Shown here piece by piece: positions 35,538-45,306 of a stretch of 64,000 nucleotides of DNA. Position 1 is the first letter of the stretch. Each line of letters begins with the position of its first letter. Source of the DNA: Scytonema millei VB511283. GTDB lineage: Bacteria; Cyanobacteriota; Cyanobacteriia; Cyanobacteriales; Chroococcidiopsidaceae. The notes under the pieces were generated by a model, which did not search any database, was not told where the DNA came from, and worked only from the letters and a program-made list of their open reading frames with translations. The stretch spans positions 628,242-692,241 of the forward strand of contig NZ_JTJC03000002.1 of NCBI RefSeq assembly GCF_000817735.3, read 5' to 3'. The position numbers were made by a program, and so were the translations under genes.

Positions 35538-36947
35538 TCAAATCAAAGCCTTCAGTAACGCTTGCAATTTCAACTGGACTTCGGCAATTTCTCGATCGGG
35601 ATTAGAGCCAGCAACAATTCCAGCACCAGCATACAACCTCGCGCGATCGCCATCAATTAAAGCCGAACGAATTCCCACAATAAACTCGCTATCTCCTTGA
35701 TGATTTACCCAACCTAAAGGTGCGGCATATAAACCTCTTTCAAATTTTTCGTAGGTGCGAATTTTTTTACAAGCGAGTTGTCTGCTAACTCCCCCTACTG
35801 CTGGAGTTGGATGTAAAGCGGCAACAATTTCTAATGGATGAACGTTTAGGGGAACTCTAGCTTGAATTGGTGTCCATAAATGTTGAATATTGGCTAGTCG
35901 CCGTAACCGAGGCGATAGTAATTGTGGAGCAATACTCAGTTCTTGCAAACTTTGCGTAATAAAGTCAATTACGACTCGGTGTTCGTGCCTTTCTTTTTCA
36001 CTCTGCAATAATTGATTTGCTAATACTGCATCTTCCGCCGTTGTTTTTCCTCGCGAAATTGAACCAGCTAATGCATCGGTAAATAGTTGGCGATCGCGAA
36101 TGCTAATTAATCGTTCTGGACTTGCGCCGATAAAGTTTTGTCCTTTCCCATTGTGAGTAGAAAACACATAACAATCGGGATACATTTGTCGCAAGCGGTT
36201 GAGGCAATTAAATAAGTTAAAGTCTGTATTTACCTGCACATCAATTGCATGAGCCAGAACGACTTTACTTAGTTGTTGTTTGTAAATTAATTCCGAACAA
36301 TCAATGACTGCTTGTTTAAAGCGAGCGATACTACTAACATTGACTTGACTGAATTCTCGTTGAAAATGATTTTCTTCATTTTCTGGCTGTTCTATTGAGG
36401 TAATCTCATGAATCTTACGCCATAAGTGTTGGATGAATATATCTATATTTGTATCTGCTTCAATTGGCAAGTTAGCAACTAATACGCAGCGATCGCCTTG
36501 TCTAGCAATCTGCCAACGGGGGAGAAACACTGTAGCGACTGGAAAGGGAGAATCTGCTGTAGCCTCTGAGAAAAAACTAAAACTACAAAAGAAATGTGGT
36601 TTAGCAAAAGTATGGTTAGAAGAATCAAAAATCTCAATCTCTTTTAAACAAGAGCAAATAAACTTTTGAGTCAGATGAAAACGATTTGCACCTGCCAATT
36701 GTAACTGTGCTACAGCATCAATAGCAGCGATCGCCTCTCCTTTGCTTTTATTCTCAAAATAGAAATTTAATTGACGGGGTCGAGCTAGTTTTTCTAGTAC
36801 AACCAGCGGATCGATCGAATCGATCTCCAGAGAAATGCTGACGATTTGAGAGCAATTTCGATCGCAGTTTTTTTGCGAAGCTACAAGAAACTGGTATAGC
36901 TTCTGGCAGTTTAAGTGGTAGTTGGCAGGGCGCGGTAAAAGGAGCAT
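35538..36947 (-). CDS. menF: Isochorismate synthase MenF
   Basis: 469 residues of the chorismate-binding family. NFIGASPERLISIRDRQLFTDALAGSISRG, KERHEHRVVIDFI, HLWTPIQARV, LEIVAALHPTPAVGG and FIVGIRSALIDGDRARLYAGAGIVAGSNPDRE give the Mg2+-binding Glu residues and the active-site fold. It converts chorismate to isochorismate, the first step to phylloquinone. Divergent from menA (397 bp apart) in a cluster holding menA, menC, menE and a DHNA-CoA thioesterase. The N-terminal third is variable, as is usual. Its stop lies 3 bp past the stop of the convergent propeller gene. Confidence 0.93.
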   Translation of the reverse strand: MLLLPRPANYHLNCQKLYQFLVASQKNCDRNCSQIVSISLEIDSIDPLVVLEKLARPRQLNFYFENKSKGEAIAAIDAVAQLQLAGANRFHLTQKFICSCLKEIEIFDSSNHTFAKPHFFCSFSFFSEATADSPFPVATVFLPRWQIARQGDRCVLVANLPIEADTNIDIFIQHLWRKIHEITSIEQPENEENHFQREFSQVNVSSIARFKQAVIDCSELIYKQQLSKVVLAHAIDVQVNTDFNLFNCLNRLRQMYPDCYVFSTHNGKGQNFIGASPERLISIRDRQLFTDALAGSISRGKTTAEDAVLANQLLQSEKERHEHRVVIDFITQSLQELSIAPQLLSPRLRRLANIQHLWTPIQARVPLNVHPLEIVAALHPTPAVGGVSRQLACKKIRTYEKFERGLYAAPLGWVNHQGDSEFIVGIRSALIDGDRARLYAGAGIVAGSNPDREIAEVQLKLQALLKALI

Positions 36948-37344
36948 GAATGTTAAAGTAAACTATTTTTGCATCCAAGTTTAGTAAATTTTTTTAACTG
37001 TAAATTTTTTTTAACTTCTGTTCCTAAAGATTATTAAATCGTGATGGGATGGCTACAGGCGATCGGTTTGCATAGTGAGGAGCGAAGAGTGTTAGCAAAG
37101 CAGGACGAAGTCCGAAGCGAGAGAAAACCGCTAGAAGGCAGGCAACATAGGGGTGACAGCTACTCTCATGCCGCAAATGCACCGATCCCTATAGTACAAG
37201 AAATGGGGACAGTTATCAGTTGTCAGCTGTCAGTTATCAGTTATCAACGACTAGTGGCTCGTGACTGGTGACAAGAATTGAGTCAAGCCACTAGCCACCA
37301 GCCACTAGTCCCTGTCAATTACCAATTACCAATTACCCTTTAAA
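36948..37344. other. Divergent menF-menA gap with a structured segment and repeats
   Basis: 397 bp. Left: AT-rich, with the menF promoter expected. Middle: a non-repetitive, GC-richer segment (37061-37187) closed by a long-range stem. Right: TTATCAG heptads (37209-37246), CACTAGCCACCAGCCACTAG units (about 37250-37310) and AATTACC units (37316-37337), ending just before menA. Confidence 0.7.
37061..37187 (+). ncRNA. Candidate structured RNA or leader upstream of menA
   Basis: GATCGGT at 37061-37067 pairs with ACCGATC at 37181-37187, and GCAT (37070-37073) continues the stem with ATGC (37177-37180). Inside are small hairpins such as GGAC-GAA-GTCC and AGCG-...-CGCT. The segment is not one of the tandem repeats and no known riboswitch class is recognised. 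Strand is assumed from the following menA gene. Could also be an uncharacterised dispersed repeat. Confidence 0.35.
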
Positions 37345-38253
37345 ATGACAACAAAGCTGATTGCATATTCTAATTCTCAACCCAAATCAAAGTTGTGGAT
37401 GGCAGCGATTAAACCACCAATGTATAGCGTTGCCATTATTCCAATTTGGGTAGGAACAGCGGTAGCAGTTGCGCAAACAAAAAGTTTGAATGCAGGTGTA
37501 TTTTCGACTTTTCTCACTGCTGCTATTTGTATTGTAGCTTGGAGTAATATCAGTAATGATGTTTTCGATTCTGAAACGGGAATCGATAAAAATAAAGCTC
37601 ACTCTTTAGTGAATTTAACTGGAAACAAACGCCTAATTTTCTGGATTGGGAATCTGTTTTTGACTTTGGGTTTATTGGGTATTTTAGCGATCGCCTGGTG
37701 GCAACGAGACTTAACTATAATTGGAATTATCCTCGCGTGCTGCGCGATCGGCTACGCTTATCAGGGACCACCTTTTCGCTTAGGATATCACGGTTTAGGG
37801 GAAATTCTCTGCTTTGTGGCTTATGGTCCGCTTGCAGTTTCAGCAGCTTACTATAGTCAAACTCAATCTTGGTCAATAACAAATTTAGCTGCTTCAATTA
37901 TTGTCGGAATTGTCACTAGCTTAATTTTATTTTGTTCTCACTTTCACCAAGTCAAGGACGATCTCGCTGCCGGAAAGCGATCGCCTATTGTTCGTTTGGG
38001 TACGGCTTTATCTGCTAATTTATTACCCTGGATTTGTGGTAGTATTTACGCTTTAACTAGTTTATTAGCAGTTTTAAATATATTTCCAACATGGACTTTA
38101 CTCAGTTGGTTAAGTTTACCCTTTGCAATTAAGTTGTGTCGGCACGTTCTACAATATCATGACCAACCAGAGAAAGTCAGCAATTGTAAGTTTATTGCCG
38201 TAGGATTGCATTTTGTCTGCGGATTACTGTTAGGATTGGGATTTATGTTGTGA
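37345..38253 (+). CDS. menA: 2-carboxy-1,4-naphthoquinone phytyltransferase MenA
   Basis: 302 residues, about eight to nine membrane helices of the UbiA prenyltransferase family. The two Asp-rich motifs are NISNDVFDSETGIDKNK and HFHQVKDDLAAGKRSP, which bind the Mg-diphosphate of phytyl-PP. AIKPPMYSVAIIPIWVGTAVA at the N-terminus is typical for cyanobacterial MenA. It joins the phytyl tail to the naphthoate ring of phylloquinone, the photosystem I cofactor, in the membrane. First of three codirectional men genes, 60 bp before menC. Confidence 0.93.
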   Translation: MTTKLIAYSNSQPKSKLWMAAIKPPMYSVAIIPIWVGTAVAVAQTKSLNAGVFSTFLTAAICIVAWSNISNDVFDSETGIDKNKAHSLVNLTGNKRLIFWIGNLFLTLGLLGILAIAWWQRDLTIIGIILACCAIGYAYQGPPFRLGYHGLGEILCFVAYGPLAVSAAYYSQTQSWSITNLAASIIVGIVTSLILFCSHFHQVKDDLAAGKRSPIVRLGTALSANLLPWICGSIYALTSLLAVLNIFPTWTLLSWLSLPFAIKLCRHVLQYHDQPEKVSNCKFIAVGLHFVCGLLLGLGFML

Positions 38254-38313
38254 GTGTCATTTGTCAGTTATCAGTGACTGGTGACTAGTGGCTGGTAGCT
38301 AGAGAAGATTTCC

Positions 38314-39272
38314 ATGACCCAATTCAATTTTCGCCCTTATCGACGACGATTTCAACCACCTCTACAAACAAATCATGGCGTTTGGGATGTGCGAGATGGG
38401 ATTATAATTCGATTGACTAGCGATTCAAATGTGGGATATGGTGAGATTGCGCCTATTAGTTGGTTTGGTTCAGAAACAGTAGAACAAGCTTTAGATTTTT
38501 GTCGCCAGTTACCAAAAGAAGTTTCTGAGGAAATTATTTTTTCAATTCCCGATCGCTTTCCTGCTTGTCAGTTTGGATTTGAATCCGCATGGGAAGATAT
38601 TAATTGTAGGGGCGTACAGATGTATGCCCCTATAATACCTCTTGCTTACAGTGCCTTACTTCCTGCTGGCAAAGCCGCCTTATCAACTTGGCAAAGTTTA
38701 GCAAAAGACGGTTACAGCACCTTTAAATGGAAAATTGGAGTCGATCCCATTGCTGAGGAATTGGCTATTTTTCACCATTTAATTGAAGTGCTACCAGAGG
38801 GAGTAAAACTGCGATTAGATGCTAATGGGGGACTGAGTTATGAAGAGGCAAATTTATGGCTTTATAACTGCGATAATATTATGGCAGCGGGGGCAGGCGG
38901 AGAAATTGAATATATCGAACAGCCGCTTGCTGTAAAAAATTTGACTGAAATGCAAGAGTTAAGTGACTACTATGCTACTGCGATCGCGCTCGATGAATCT
39001 GTGGCAAATCTGACTCAATTAGAGGCGTGTTATCAACGGGGATGGCGAGGAATTTTTACGATCAAACCCAGTATTGCTGGTTCGCCAAGCCGTCTGCGAA
39101 AGTTCTGTCAAGAACGTAAAATTGATGCGGTGTTTTCTTCCGTATTTGAAACTATTGTAGGTAGACAAGCAGCTTTAAAACTAGCAGCAGAACTATCTAT
39201 AAATCGCCGCGCAGTTGGTTTTGGCGTACATCACTGGTTAGAGGAAAACGAACAAACCTGGCTAGAACAATT

Positions 39273-39288
<16 letters not shown>
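38314..39288 (+). CDS. menC: o-Succinylbenzoate synthase MenC
   Basis: 324 residues of the enolase superfamily. Active-site elements in order: the KWKIGV Lys, LRLDANGG Asp, EYIEQPL Glu, ALDESVA Asp, FTIKPSIAGS Lys. It dehydrates SHCHC to o-succinylbenzoate. Residues about 98-108 (RGVQMYAPIIP) are encoded by a GGGGCGTACA/TGTATGCCCC palindromic repeat inserted in frame between the capping domain and the LAYSALLPAG segment. The 3' end overlaps the menE start by 16 bp, suggesting translational coupling. Confidence 0.93.
38606..38634. repeat. GC-rich palindrome copy inside menC
   Basis: GTAGGGGCGTACA, two bases, then TGTATGCCCCTAT. Differs from the intergenic copies at paired positions, with one G-U pair retained, so the hairpin persists although it is translated. 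Confidence 0.8.
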
Positions 39289-40700
<1,412 letters not shown>

Positions 40701-41212
40701 TTAGTTGTCGTCTGGTTCTGCTTTCAGGATCGATACAAACGTGTTCTGTCAAGACTTTGGCGACTTCGCGATCGCGTGCGTCAATTATTTTATACGTTAC
40801 CTCAAAATAATCGTCACCCATATATTTTGGTGTCAGATCGATTAAAATCTTATCGCCACAAAACATCGGACGGAAAAAATCTGCACTGGCATGAACGATC
40901 GGAATGGCAACCGATGATTTACCAAAAAATGCTTGAATGTTAACTCCCGATGCCGCTAAAGACTCTTCGTAAGCTTCATGGCATATAGATAGAACGCTGG
41001 CAAAGTAGACAACCCCAGCCGCGTCAGTATCCTGAAAGCGAATAGTACGAGTGTATGTAAATGTCATTTATCGAGGAATACGTTCACATCTATTTATCTC
41101 CGATAGTGCCAGAATTCGCCACTCATTTTTCTTTTTTTCTTAATTTTTAACGCCAATCCAGAGTGAAGAGGCATTAAATATTCTCCAACTTGCATAAAAA
41201 TAGAGTTTTATT

Positions 41213-42032: not shown

Positions 42033-42055
42033 CGTGATGGGAGTGAGGAGTTAAC

Positions 42056-44179
42056 TTGAATCCATTATCAAACGACGTGCTTTCGCAGCCAATTTCTCGA
42101 CGCACTTTATTTAAGTTATGTGGGATTGGTGCTGTCGGGGGAGTTGTGGGATACACTCGGTTCTCAAAACCACAGCCTACAGTACACCAACCAGATAGAT
42201 TCAATCTACCGCGATCGCTAACTCAATCGAAAAGCGTAGTTGTTGTCGGTGGAGGATTAGCGGGATTAGCTTGCGCCTACGAACTGAGTCAGCGCGGATT
42301 TGCCGTGACGCTATTAGAGAGATCGCCACAACTGGGTGGTAAGATTGCCAGCTGGCAGGTTGAAGCCGCAGGGGAAACTTTTATGATGGAACATGGCTTC
42401 CACGGTTTCTTTCCCCAGTACTACAACCTCAAAAGTATCGTGGCAGAACTGGAAATTCAGGACAATTTTCGGTCTTTAAATTCCTACGCCGTCCTCTATC
42501 GGGGAGAAAAGTACCAGCCAGAAGTTTTCCGTCCCAGCCACTCAGCGTTCCCGTGGAATATCGTCGATTTAGCGATCGCCTCTCCGAATCGGCTTAAATG
42601 GGGTATTAACCTGACAAAATGGGAACACTGGCAGGTGTTTCGGGCAATTACCGGATTTCAAACCCAAAAAACCTTTCAACGTCTAGATCATCTTTCCGTA
42701 GCTGAGTGGGTAGAACGGAGTTTTCCCCAAGGATTATACGATTTATACTTTTTACCCTTCGCCAAATCAAGCTTAAATGCTCCCGATCTCATGAGTGTAG
42801 GGGAATTAATGCAATTTTTCCACTTCTATTTTTTTGGCAATCCCGAAGGACTCGCTTTTAACGGTACGCGCTACGACATGGGTACGAGTTTAGTCCAACC
42901 AATTGCCCAGGCGATCGAGCAAAATGGTGGCAAGATCGTCACAGGTGCAATCGTCACCGCAATTCAGGCTCAAAATGGCAAGATTTCATCCCTTAGCTAT
43001 TCTCAGGGAGAAGGGGAGGATACACCGTTTTGGGTATCGGGAGTCGGGAGTCGGGAGTCGGTAGGGGCGGGTTTGGAAACCCACCCGTACGGGAGTAGGG
43101 GCGGGTTCACCCAAAATCTCAATTCCCCCGCAGATAAGTCTGGCAAACCCGCCCTTCCAGAGATCGACAGCGGCAAAAACATAGAATATTACGGTGCAGC
43201 CGATCGCATGTATGCTGTTTCTCCCGAATATAAAGAAGCCATCTCCCTCACTTGTACTCATCAAGGCTGTACGGTACAGCTAGCAGAAGATGGCAAGTTT
43301 CACTGTCCCTGTCATGGCGCAGTATACGATCGCCACGGAAAAGTCTTGAAAGGACCCGCACAAAAAGATTTACCCCGCTTTCAAGTCGTCAAACAGCAGA
43401 AAGAACGGTTACAGCTAGTAGCAGTAAACGGGAGTCGGGAGTCGGGAGTCGGGAGTCGGGAATTATTCAGCAACCAACTACCAACTACCAACTACCAACT
43501 ACCCATTACCAACTACCCATTACCAATTCAAGCCGATTACTACGTCTTCGCCACTGACGTACCAGGAGTACAACAATTATTTACCCTAGTTACGGGAGAA
43601 GTTAGCCAGCAAGTGCGATCGCAAGTCGAAAAATTATCTCTAGCCGATCCTTTCGCTGTCTGTCGCTTCTGGTTCGATCGCGATTTTGATTGGGAACACA
43701 GCAATTTTACCTCTTTATCTGGCTATCAACTCACCGATAGCATTACGCTTTATCACCGCATTCAGGAACCGTATATTGATTGGGCAAATAAAACAGGTGG
43801 TAGCGTCGTGGAGTTACACGCCTATTGTTACAAAGAAAAAGAGTTTCCCCACCAGCAAGCCTTATTAACAACATTCGAGCAAGAATTATATGAAATCGTA
43901 CCGCAGTTACAGCAAGCAAAAATGTTGCATCGGGAATTGGTCAATCAAAAGAATTTTTCTGGTTATCCACCAAATAGCTATAGCGATCGACCGGAAACAA
44001 GTACGGAGATTCCTAATTTAATATTCGCAGGTGATTGGGTCAAAATGCCATTTCCTTGCGGATTGATGGAAAGGGCAGTAAGTAGTGGGTTATTAGCAGC
44101 AAATGAGATTTTACATCGCGAAGGATTGCAAAGGCGATCTCTTTTCTCGGTTGATCCAGAGGGCATGTTGAAGATTTAA
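42056..44179 (+). CDS. CruE/CrtU-like carotene desaturase/methyltransferase with internal Rieske domain, Tat signal
   Basis: 707 residues. A twin-arginine leader (SRRTLFKLCGIGAVGGVVGY) precedes an FAD domain (VVVVGGGLAGLACAYELSQR). GFHGFFPQYYNLKSIV and SSLNAPDLMSVGELMQFFHFYF match CrtU/CruE enzymes that make aromatic carotenoid rings. A Rieske [2Fe-2S] domain with C400-T-H402 and C417-P-C-H420, plus disulfide Cys405/Cys419, sits inside the FAD domain; NLIFAGDWVKMPFPCGLMERAVSSG closes it. Two translated repeats (about 328-368 and 459-492) flank the Rieske domain. Start is TTG at 42056 with AGGAG five bases upstream. A related phytoene-desaturase-like role cannot be excluded. Confidence 0.72.
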   Translation: MNPLSNDVLSQPISRRTLFKLCGIGAVGGVVGYTRFSKPQPTVHQPDRFNLPRSLTQSKSVVVVGGGLAGLACAYELSQRGFAVTLLERSPQLGGKIASWQVEAAGETFMMEHGFHGFFPQYYNLKSIVAELEIQDNFRSLNSYAVLYRGEKYQPEVFRPSHSAFPWNIVDLAIASPNRLKWGINLTKWEHWQVFRAITGFQTQKTFQRLDHLSVAEWVERSFPQGLYDLYFLPFAKSSLNAPDLMSVGELMQFFHFYFFGNPEGLAFNGTRYDMGTSLVQPIAQAIEQNGGKIVTGAIVTAIQAQNGKISSLSYSQGEGEDTPFWVSGVGSRESVGAGLETHPYGSRGGFTQNLNSPADKSGKPALPEIDSGKNIEYYGAADRMYAVSPEYKEAISLTCTHQGCTVQLAEDGKFHCPCHGAVYDRHGKVLKGPAQKDLPRFQVVKQQKERLQLVAVNGSRESGVGSRELFSNQLPTTNYQLPITNYPLPIQADYYVFATDVPGVQQLFTLVTGEVSQQVRSQVEKLSLADPFAVCRFWFDRDFDWEHSNFTSLSGYQLTDSITLYHRIQEPYIDWANKTGGSVVELHAYCYKEKEFPHQQALLTTFEQELYEIVPQLQQAKMLHRELVNQKNFSGYPPNSYSDRPETSTEIPNLIFAGDWVKMPFPCGLMERAVSSGLLAANEILHREGLQRRSLFSVDPEGMLKI
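43038..43158. repeat. First in-frame repeat insert in the CruE-like gene
   Basis: GGGAGTCGGGAGTCGG units followed by a GTAGGGGCGGGTT/AACCCACCC palindrome and GGCAAACCCGCC. It is translated in frame and lies just upstream of the Rieske segment. Confidence 0.82.
43429..43529. repeat. Second in-frame repeat insert in the CruE-like gene
   Basis: Four GGGAGTC heptads, then about seven CAACTAC/CATTACC units, read as SRESGVGSRE and [13 protein letters not shown]. It lies just downstream of the Rieske segment. Confidence 0.85.
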
Positions 44180-44184
44180 CCAAA

Positions 44185-44212
44185 GTAGGGTGCATTATTC
44201 AACGCACCCTAC
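44185..44212 (+). repeat. GTAGGGTGC hairpin between the two redox genes
   Basis: GTAGGGTGC and GCACCCTAC arms (9 bp) around a 10-base loop, six bases after the CruE-like stop. It may limit readthrough into the next gene or stabilise the upstream message. Confidence 0.75.
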
Positions 44213-44250
44213 AAATTTCAAAATTATTAGATTCAAAAATATATAAAGCT

Positions 44251-45306
44251 ATGCAAACACCCTCACTAATTTCACAACAGCGCGATATTCGACAAACCGG
44301 AATTAATCCGAATCACTGGTATGCAGTCGCCCGAAGTAGTGAAGTTACTACTAATCCTATAGCCGTTACTCTTTGGCAGCAAGCGATCGCAATTTATCGT
44401 GGCAACGATGGTAAAGTCTATGCTTTAGAAGATCGATGTCCGCACCGTCAAGTCAAACTTAGTCACGGACGAGTTGTAGATAACAATATAGAATGTGCTT
44501 ACCACGGCTGGCATATAGGGGGAAATGGTGAATGTGTTGCCGTTCCTTATTTGGCAGCAAATCAAAAACTACCAAATTGCAAAATTCGCCATTATCCAGT
44601 ACGAGAACAGGATGGTTTTATTTGGATATTTCCTGGCGATTCCAATATATCTACACAAATTCAACCTTTGGGCTTACCAGAATGGGATCATCTCAACTAT
44701 ATTGCCACTGTTTCAATTATTGAATGTACCGCTCACTATTCTTATTTAATTGAAAACTTGATGGATATGTACCACGGGCATTTACATCAAAGTTGGCAAG
44801 CTTGGGCAGATCCAGTGTTGCAAGATATTTATGAAGATAACGGACGAGTTGACGCGCATTACCAAGCACAAAGTTATTATAAAATTGATAAAATCTGGTC
44901 GATATCACAATTATTTTTCCCTGCCTTACGTCGGCTTCACCCAGAACCTTTAGACGTGAGCTATATTTATCCCAATTGGACATCAACATTAGGAAATGAT
45001 TTTAAAATTTATTGTTTATTTTGCCCAATCAATGACATTAAAACTCGTGCCTATTTAATTCATTTTACTTCTCTCAATGCCTTCTGGCGCTTGCATAAAT
45101 TACCCGTAGCTTTTAGGAAGTTCGTCAAAAACAGTTTATTTGGTTCGGCACAGAAATTATTAGATGGATTAGTCCTTCAAGATGTACAAATGATTGAAGA
45201 GGAACAGCAAGCCTATCTCGCCCATCCAGAACAAAAAAATCATGAATTAAACCGCGCTTTAGTTAGCGTCCAAAAATTGATTAGAAGTCAAGCTAATACT
45301 GATTAG
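44251..45306 (+). CDS. Rieske non-heme iron oxygenase
   Basis: 351 residues. N-terminal Rieske centre C63-P-H65 and C82-A-Y-H85 (DRCPHRQVKLSHG, ECAYHGWHIG), lacking the disulfide cysteines, as in oxygenase-type Rieske domains. The mononuclear iron site is N169-x2-D172-x2-H175-x3-H179 (ENLMDMYHGHLHQ). It belongs to the ring-hydroxylating/pheophorbide-oxygenase-like group. Codirectional with the CruE-like gene 71 bp upstream. Synechoxanthin synthesis is known to use a Rieske protein (CruH) to oxidise aromatic-carotenoid methyl groups, so that role is a reasonable guess; homology to CruH was not tested. Confidence 0.85.
   Translation: MQTPSLISQQRDIRQTGINPNHWYAVARSSEVTTNPIAVTLWQQAIAIYRGNDGKVYALEDRCPHRQVKLSHGRVVDNNIECAYHGWHIGGNGECVAVPYLAANQKLPNCKIRHYPVREQDGFIWIFPGDSNISTQIQPLGLPEWDHLNYIATVSIIECTAHYSYLIENLMDMYHGHLHQSWQAWADPVLQDIYEDNGRVDAHYQAQSYYKIDKIWSISQLFFPALRRLHPEPLDVSYIYPNWTSTLGNDFKIYCLFCPINDIKTRAYLIHFTSLNAFWRLHKLPVAFRKFVKNSLFGSAQKLLDGLVLQDVQMIEEEQQAYLAHPEQKNHELNRALVSVQKLIRSQANTD

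Follow-up and report, generated by a model that had tools for sequence, protein, structure and literature searches.

On which side of the membrane, and with which electron acceptor, is the ring of a carotenoid made aromatic? This question is raised by two adjacent genes of Scytonema millei VB511283, located at positions 42056–45306 of a 64,000-nucleotide stretch of contig NZ_JTJC03000002.1 (contig positions 628,242–692,241; hereafter the window). Carotenoids with chi- and phi-rings leave geological markers (isorenieratane and others), and the common assumption for other carotenoid desaturases is that they work at the cytoplasmic face. A preliminary description of the locus had proposed a CruE/CrtU-like flavoprotein with a twin-arginine signal and a high-potential Rieske centre, followed by a Rieske oxygenase, and had considered a location on the far side of the membrane unexpected. 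The two genes are almost certainly cruE and cruH, known from synechoxanthin formation, and their most likely product is synechoxanthin itself, a pigment that carries aromatic rings. To the fuller reading, in which CruE is in addition exported by the twin-arginine translocation (Tat) system to the lumenal or periplasmic side and releases its electrons through its Rieske cluster, while CruH is cytoplasmic, we assign a probability of about 0.7; the Tat dependence, the electron path, the acceptor and the side of CruH are the parts that we infer. The features of the locus, all on the plus strand, are as follows.

42056..44179, plus strand: cruE (of the crtU/sll0254 kind), beta-carotene desaturase/methyltransferase whose flavin adenine dinucleotide (FAD) fold is interrupted by a Rieske domain (Pfam, alignment, tree and model)
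44251..45306, plus strand: cruH, Rieske non-haem iron oxygenase without a signal sequence (Pfam, orthologue searches and tree)
42046..42050, plus strand: AGGAG, likely ribosome-binding site, 5 bases upstream of the TTG (sequence)
42056..42163, plus strand: N-terminal twin-arginine (Tat-type) region of CruE, residues 1–36 (invariance of R15 and R16, helix in the model, hydrophobicity)
42098–42103, plus strand: RR codons of CruE, within the region of residues 1–36
42248..42265, plus strand: GGGLAG dinucleotide (FAD) binding motif, CruE residues 65–70 (invariant G65, G67, L68, A69 and G70)
43184..43423, plus strand: Rieske [2Fe-2S] domain of CruE, b6f/bc1 type (ligands C400, H402, C417 and H420; disulphide cysteines C405 and C419)
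43037..43174, plus strand, approximate borders: in-frame insertion 1 of CruE, in the linker leading into the Rieske domain (homologue alignment, repeats, low model confidence at residues 338–373)
43430..43531, plus strand, approximate borders: in-frame insertion 2 of CruE, in the linker that follows the Rieske domain (homologue alignment, repeats, low model confidence at residues 462–480)
44314–44565, plus strand: Rieske domain of CruH
44755–44787, plus strand: mononuclear-iron motif NLMDMYHGHLH of CruH

The open reading frame (ORF) of cruE starts with TTG and encodes 707 residues, that of cruH starts with ATG and encodes 351 residues, and the spacing of 71 bp given in the preliminary description is correct. 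The TTG agrees with the starts of homologues and lies about 14 residues ahead of the RR. CruE opens with SRRTLFK, followed by a hydrophobic helix, and its translation contains GFHGFFPQYYNL, FFHFYFFGNPEGL, CTHQGC and CPCHG. Pfam recognizes Amino_oxidase (7.7e-41) and Rieske (3.5e-10) in CruE and Rieske (5.3e-24) in CruH. The genome has a single copy of cruE; the next FAD matches are partial, with 27–28% identity over about 245 residues and up to 45% over shorter stretches, and include CrtP (L003) and CrtQ (L004), both identified by curated cut-offs.

The assignment of the flavoprotein to CruE/CrtU is borne out by phylogeny, by its FAD amine-oxidase/phytoene-desaturase fold, and by its twin arginines and bc-type Rieske domain. 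In a tree of 39 proteins, built by a quick method with only one CrtP and one CrtQ and with long branches flagged, the CruE/CrtU proteins lie on one side of a branch with support of 97 and CrtP and CrtQ on the other, outside CruE/CrtU (97 and 99). The window protein falls inside a cyanobacterial clade (100) with Gloeobacterales at its base. The CruE/CrtU side also includes the CrtU of Thiodictyon (L051), of green sulphur bacteria and of Streptomyces: the proteins of purple and green sulphur bacteria and of metagenome-assembled genomes (MAGs) share one branch (92), and those of Streptomyces have a branch of their own (100), without a firm order among the groups. The flavoprotein thus groups neither with phytoene desaturase nor with a non-carotenoid clade, the two placements that the preliminary description had named as fatal to its proposal. 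An identity as CrtP or CrtQ was rejected on the NCBIfam scores (87.1 against a cut-off of 569.4 and 66.1 against 622.15) as well as on the tree, and an identity as the hydroxysqualene dehydroxylase HpnE on a score of 154 against a cut-off of 283.05. Phylogenies of CrtU, CruE and CruH have been published (PMC9342728; legend of Figure S13 of PMC2889829).

The N-terminus and the Rieske domain were compared across an alignment of 92 members of the family, comprising 59 cyanobacteria, 20 green and 8 purple sulphur bacteria and 5 MAGs. These are the sequences at less than 88% identity (93) minus L160, whose contig begins inside the gene; the fragment L101 was also excluded. Residues R15, R16, C400, H402, C405, C417, C419 and H420 are invariant in 92/92, at identities to the window protein of 31–77%. 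The RR was read in frame from the DNA and guided the choice of start codon. Because the arginines are invariant over such a range, the alignment indicates that the twin-arginine N-terminus noted earlier is not a chance occurrence. The earlier picture of a Tat-type, Rieske-bearing CruE as a special version did not hold: on this alignment, the design is the norm both among the cyanobacterial enzymes and among those of green and purple sulphur bacteria, Thiodictyon included, and not an oddity of the strain. With the first arginine numbered 1, position 4 or 5 is hydrophobic in all 92 members, positions 5–8 include K, R, Q, N or H in 88, and positions 8–20 (the h-region) include an acidic residue in only one. 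CruE therefore has the conserved twin-arginine motif and h-region by which a putative Tat substrate is recognized in sequence.

The Rieske domain is equally general. A CruE/CrtU homologue is present in 77/98 genomes of the class to which a Chlorobiaceae MAG in our survey belongs, and for 74 of these 77 the alignment spans the entire query with its Rieske part; a strain-specific fusion was therefore rejected. The domain is also present in all 155 loci that pass a motif filter, a filter which itself requires the domain. Of 155 expected loci, all except the fragment L101 passed; the extra locus L048 is the window gene again, and the 155 contain other duplicates, such as L102 and L170. Motif variants missed by a stricter motif (L102, L103, L105, L106, L111, L113 and L140) have the domain on reading.

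As to its type, the best curated model for the Rieske part is PetC (1.1e-13), followed by TIGR01416 and the arsenite-oxidase small subunit, and the best sequence with a solved structure is a b6f Rieske protein (2e-12). Disulphide cysteines mark exported Rieske domains of the bc type, and we take C405 and C419 to be that disulphide pair. A serine after CPCHG raises the potential of bc-type clusters. The label of a high-potential centre given to this domain is thus upheld in part: the domain has the motif and the two disulphide cysteines, but alanine takes the place of the serine. A tyrosine or phenylalanine is found shortly downstream in 92/92 members.

An AlphaFold2 model of CruE, calculated with 91 sequences, has a mean predicted local distance difference test (pLDDT) score of 85.6 and a predicted template modelling score of 0.87. 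It contains a helix at residues 15–36, and the Rieske strands fall within residues 377–456; the pLDDT is below 50 at residues 1–10, 338–361, 363–373, 462–474 and 478–480. The best solved fold is rice phytoene desaturase (5MOG), with a Z-score of 37.4 and a root-mean-square deviation of 2.7 for 445/466 residues, and Foldseek also ranks it first. The Rieske domain is thus, as modelled, an insertion within a phytoene-desaturase fold. The closest solved fold is accordingly shared with plant phytoene desaturase and cyanobacterial CrtP, although CrtP (482 residues) is without the Rieske insertion and far from the window CruE in the tree. The Rieske type was assigned from sequence; the fold comparison used the whole model, and its rows barely test the Rieske part.

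A mechanism can be proposed on this basis. CruE would convert beta-carotene to renierapurpurin, and CruH would oxidize the C-18 methyl groups. The Tat system would carry CruE over the thylakoid (or plasma) membrane with FAD and Rieske cluster in place, as it does PetC, and an uncleaved N-terminal helix would keep the enzyme anchored. In the lumen or periplasm, the FAD domain would remove hydride equivalents from the beta-ring of carotene, and migration of a methyl group would yield the aromatic chi-ring. The fused Rieske cluster would re-oxidize the FAD and pass single electrons to a carrier on the same side, which in cyanobacteria may be cytochrome c6 or plastocyanin. Ring formation by CruE would need no oxygen, because homologues occur in Thiodictyon, a purple sulphur bacterium, and in green sulphur bacteria, which are anaerobic phototrophs. 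CruH, lacking a signal, would then act from the cytoplasm and oxidize the methyl groups of the ring. Both CruE and CruH are required for synechoxanthin (PMC9958174, citing Graham and Bryant 2008).

The named counterparts of the window CruE are A1248 of Synechococcus PCC 7002 (CruE, also crtU) and Sll0254 of Synechocystis, which are the same kind of gene by name. We take A2246 to be the CruH of PCC 7002, and by locus number A1248 and A2246 are presumably distant, whereas the window cruH lies directly downstream of cruE. Sll0254 is the best reciprocal BLAST match of A1248 (PMC7880944) and is annotated as a phytoene dehydrogenase Rieske iron-sulfur component (PMC7296061), so that its Rieske part was already a known annotation. 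In PCC 7002, A1248, listed as a beta-carotene desaturase, had an enrichment of 5.88 on labelling with lumenal PsbU-APEX2, as compared with 5.96 for PetC, and was found in 0/2 cytoplasmic GFP-APEX2 samples (PMC7880944). A lumenal or periplasmic side of CruE is therefore likely, and the far-side location is less unexpected than had been thought, as this lumen labelling had already pointed there. The main text of the same study does not mention A2246 (PMC7880944). CruE and CruH of Synechocystis have been placed in thylakoid membranes (PMC6878006). No statement was found in the open-licence literature on Tat export of CruE/CrtU, on a role for its Rieske domain, or on which side of the membrane the ring is formed and what accepts the electrons of that step; this coverage does not extend to key papers in J. 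Bacteriol., JBC and PNAS.

Several observations weigh against export and electron exit through the cluster. The h-region is moderately hydrophobic (best 15-residue mean of 1.39, averaged over the 92 members), and the first 45 residues of CruE contain no AxA motif. Basic residues flank the N-terminal helix on both sides (RRTLFK ... TRFSKPQP), and the positive-inside rule therefore leaves the topology unsettled. The potential-raising serine is mostly missing from the family (HGA in 61/92, HAG in 22/92 and HGS in 4/92). For Streptomyces CrtU (515–522 residues), three of five proteins were examined and lack both a Tat-type region and a Rieske motif (Pfam on one), and the cluster is therefore not needed for the chemistry as such. 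The lumen labelling concerns A1248, which is linked to the window CruE by name only, and the label is not absolute, since the cytoplasm-facing PsaC and PsaD were also enriched (PMC7880944). Neither Sll0254 nor CruE appears in the main text of a Synechocystis lumen APEX2 study (PMC9764255), and a quantification of Synechocystis proteins detected neither CruE nor CruH (PMC9958174).

Some of these points would be accommodated if CruE and CruH are correctly identified but CruE faces the cytoplasm, with the RR-helix as a mere anchor and the Rieske cluster taking electrons from ferredoxin or giving them to quinone. We consider this unlikely, though it is the strongest of the alternatives. It draws on the basic residues on both sides of the helix and on related phytoene desaturases, which act at the cytoplasmic or stromal face with quinone. 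That the lumen study on Synechocystis does not mention Sll0254 in its main text also counts in its favour (PMC9764255). A mere anchor, however, would not require that precisely two arginines stay unchanged across 92 diverse sequences, nor does it account for the invariant disulphide cysteines, and A1248 was labelled from the lumen side and not in the cytoplasmic samples (PMC7880944).

Extending the preferred lumenal or periplasmic placement of CruE beyond the strain, we see about an even chance that phototrophs with CruE/CrtU in general form aromatic rings outside the cytoplasm, with the electrons entering the lumenal or periplasmic pool of c-type cytochromes and the oxygenation by CruH taking place on the opposite face. 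The point of interest is a family-wide export signal joined to a fused Rieske cluster: the parts proposed for this locus and the CruE/CruH assignment are confirmed, and the architecture itself is a family rule in phototrophs. The invariant twin arginines and disulphide cysteines lead to a testable claim, namely that the ring step is lumenal or periplasmic, independent of oxygen and coupled to c-type cytochromes. If true, heterologous expression of the full-length gene may require Tat export and iron-sulphur loading.

Outside the cyanobacteria, the CrtU of Thiodictyon syntrophicum CAD16 is 34–35% identical to the window protein and shares the twin-arginine start, the two FAD halves, the Rieske insertion and the conserved motifs. 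Green sulphur bacterial CrtU, which makes phi-rings, is 31–36% identical and shares the full-length architecture, with an MxRREF-type start and the Rieske motifs. The Thiodictyon gene has been assigned as crtU, making the chi-ring of okenone, which derives from gamma-carotene, and it has been argued that it should be called cruE (PMC10604819). CrtU/CruE has also been reported in phototrophic Myxococcota (PMC10576062). Streptomyces CrtU, which is involved in isorenieratene formation, shares the FAD fold and the HAFFRQYYN motif and lies on the same side of the tree, and its gene is adjoined by a separate Rieske-DUF5914 gene in 4/5 plasmids (L052:7439-8455, L056:6419-7432, and also L054 and L055; Rieske confirmed by Pfam in two, with the motif CPHLG..CHWH in L052). 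Because of this adjacency, the Rieske-DUF5914 protein might serve the Rieske-less CrtU as a separate redox partner, which hints that the partner may have been replaced rather than lost. No mention of DUF5914 was found in the open-licence literature searched.

A second alternative concerns the chemistry of the flavoprotein, which, in line with the CrtL-diox reading of Sll0254, might be a lycopene cyclase/dioxygenase whose Rieske domain serves an oxygenase reaction. Sll0254 was once reported as a lycopene cyclase/oxygenase (PMC4470828) and is still named crtL in PMC7296061. According to the former paper, on the other hand, direct formation of beta-carotene could not be evidenced (PMC4470828). 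Moreover, the Thiodictyon homologue lies beside a dedicated crtY, homologues occur in green sulphur bacteria, which are anaerobes, and the Rieske motif is of the bc type, with no oxygenase catalytic domain alongside it in Pfam. This reading is highly improbable.

The identification of the downstream gene as cruH depends mainly on its distribution. A CruE homologue (E ≤ 1e-40) is present in 55/291 cyanobacterial genomes sampled across the phylum (33/113 genera), and the CruH orthologous group is found in exactly these 55 genomes and in 0/236 others (Fisher p 9e-61, a value that ignores relatedness); both searches drew 291 genomes, the same ones as far as listed. The limit of the group (at least 50% identity, weakest E 3.6e-120) was set after seeing a gap, beyond which the full-length paralogues have 39% identity or less (best E 3.4e-73, at 38%). 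Among the 20 genomes behind the named loci, CruH is present in 11/11 cyanobacteria with CruE, and no match at E ≤ 1e-15 was found in the 5 purple and green sulphur bacteria (four purple sulphur bacteria other than Thiodictyon and a single green sulphur bacterium). Four proteobacterial MAGs have only distant oxygenases, with 29% identity or less over the full length and 38% or less over the Rieske part.

The CruH group forms one clade (99), apart from the pheophorbide a oxygenase (PaO)-type protein L040 of the same genome, in a tree with long branches flagged. The Rieske and mononuclear-iron motifs are present in the window protein and in 38/38 orthologues examined. The N-terminus of CruH is not strongly hydrophobic, with a best 15-residue mean in the first 60 residues of 0.83, versus 1.73 for CruE. 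An identity as pheophorbide a oxygenase, which the preliminary description had flagged as the outcome that would undo its proposal, was rejected: PF08417 is not found in CruH at E ≤ 0.001 but is found in L040, and the tree agrees.

In 14/55 genomes, with coordinates read by hand, cruE is followed by cruH on the same strand with a gap of less than 2.4 kb, and adjacency is seen in at least 21/57 named cyanobacterial loci with flanks of up to 8 kb, some of whose contigs end early. No CruH was seen in the flanks of 29 further loci (23 non-cyanobacterial, 1 plasmid and 5 from other genomes). Neighbouring pairs occur in two Gloeobacterales MAGs, in a MAG labelled Aphanocapsa lilacina, which branches with these two, and in a Gloeomargaritaceae MAG; the gaps are 0, 3, 6 and 162 bp at L108, L115, L117 and L113, near the base of the cyanobacterial clade. 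As linked pairs include such Gloeobacterales-type and Gloeomargaritaceae MAGs, the pairing is probably old. That the oxygenase is instead another Rieske enzyme, for example a pheophorbide- or sterol-oxidizing one placed there by chance, is very hard to credit: the NCBIfam model that fits it best is that of a 4beta-methylsterol monooxygenase (200 bits, below the cut-off of 600 bits), but chance explains neither the co-occurrence with CruE (both in the 291 genomes and in the 11/11 versus 0/5 contrast) nor the recurrent downstream position of the gene, and no PaO domain is present, unlike in L040.

Remnants of CruH were seen in three genomes without CruE, as a fragment (G272:C14:17572-18000) and as sequences with stops (G066:C5:466245-466556 and G121:C83:103993-104268), and these look as if the pathway had been lost. 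A second oxygenase family (L039, G000:C3:239562-240551), about 34–39% identical to CruH, occurs in the genome here and in several others with and without CruE; its best NCBIfam match is also the 4beta-methylsterol monooxygenase model, below the cut-off.

The wider survey of CruE loci covered the best 80 of 295 loci in a scan of named genomes. These comprise 57 cyanobacteria, 17 Chromatiaceae-type loci (including Chromatium okenii, Lamprocystis, Thiocystis and Thiocapsa marina), one Chlorobiaceae MAG and five proteobacteria-named MAGs; the CrtU homologues of the last group (L103, L104, L105, L106 and L111) carry a Rieske domain. The 16 plasmid records with a CruE match consist of one Calothrix, one Candidatus Thiodictyon syntrophicum and 14 from Streptomyces and kin. 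The Thiodictyon homologue lies in a photosynthesis/okenone cluster beside crtY, two crtD-named genes and a carotenoid 1,2-hydratase gene, and in three annotated Streptomyces-type plasmid loci crtU-type genes lie beside lycopene cyclase and phytoene desaturase genes. The Calothrix gene is annotated as a putative phytoene dehydrogenase Rieske iron-sulfur component; this plasmid-borne cruE of Calothrix sp. NIES-4105 (L050:8001-9953) adjoins a carotenoid oxygenase gene.

The window CruE presumably differs from that of PCC 7002 in carrying two in-frame insertions that flank the Rieske domain and, to judge from the homologue alignment, are genomic-repeat insertions particular to the strain. The first (approximately 43037–43174) consists of GGGAGTC heptamers and the GTAGGGGCGGGTTT palindrome and is longer than in 8 aligned homologues; the second (approximately 43430–43531) contains GGGAGTC heptamers and CCAACTA-type repeats and is absent from the same 8. 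Both lie in linkers of the Rieske domain, keep the frame and are predicted to be disordered in the model. Across the genome, (GGGAGTC)3 occurs 65 times in the forward and 64 times in the reverse orientation, with overlapping matches counted (reversed control, 0), and the GTAGGGGCGGGTTT palindrome, with up to two mismatches, 25+25 times, where the two strands largely count the same sites. Two homologues (L009 and L037) also have an enlarged linker at the place of the first insertion.

In the surroundings of cruE and cruH, no other carotenoid genes were recognized by eye among the ORFs between 36000 and 52000, neighbours for which no family search was made. Upstream of the pair, at 35538–41067 of the window, ORF translations read by eye suggest a run of men/phylloquinone-like genes, with an isochorismate synthase, a prenyltransferase, an o-succinylbenzoate synthase, a CoA ligase and a thioesterase.

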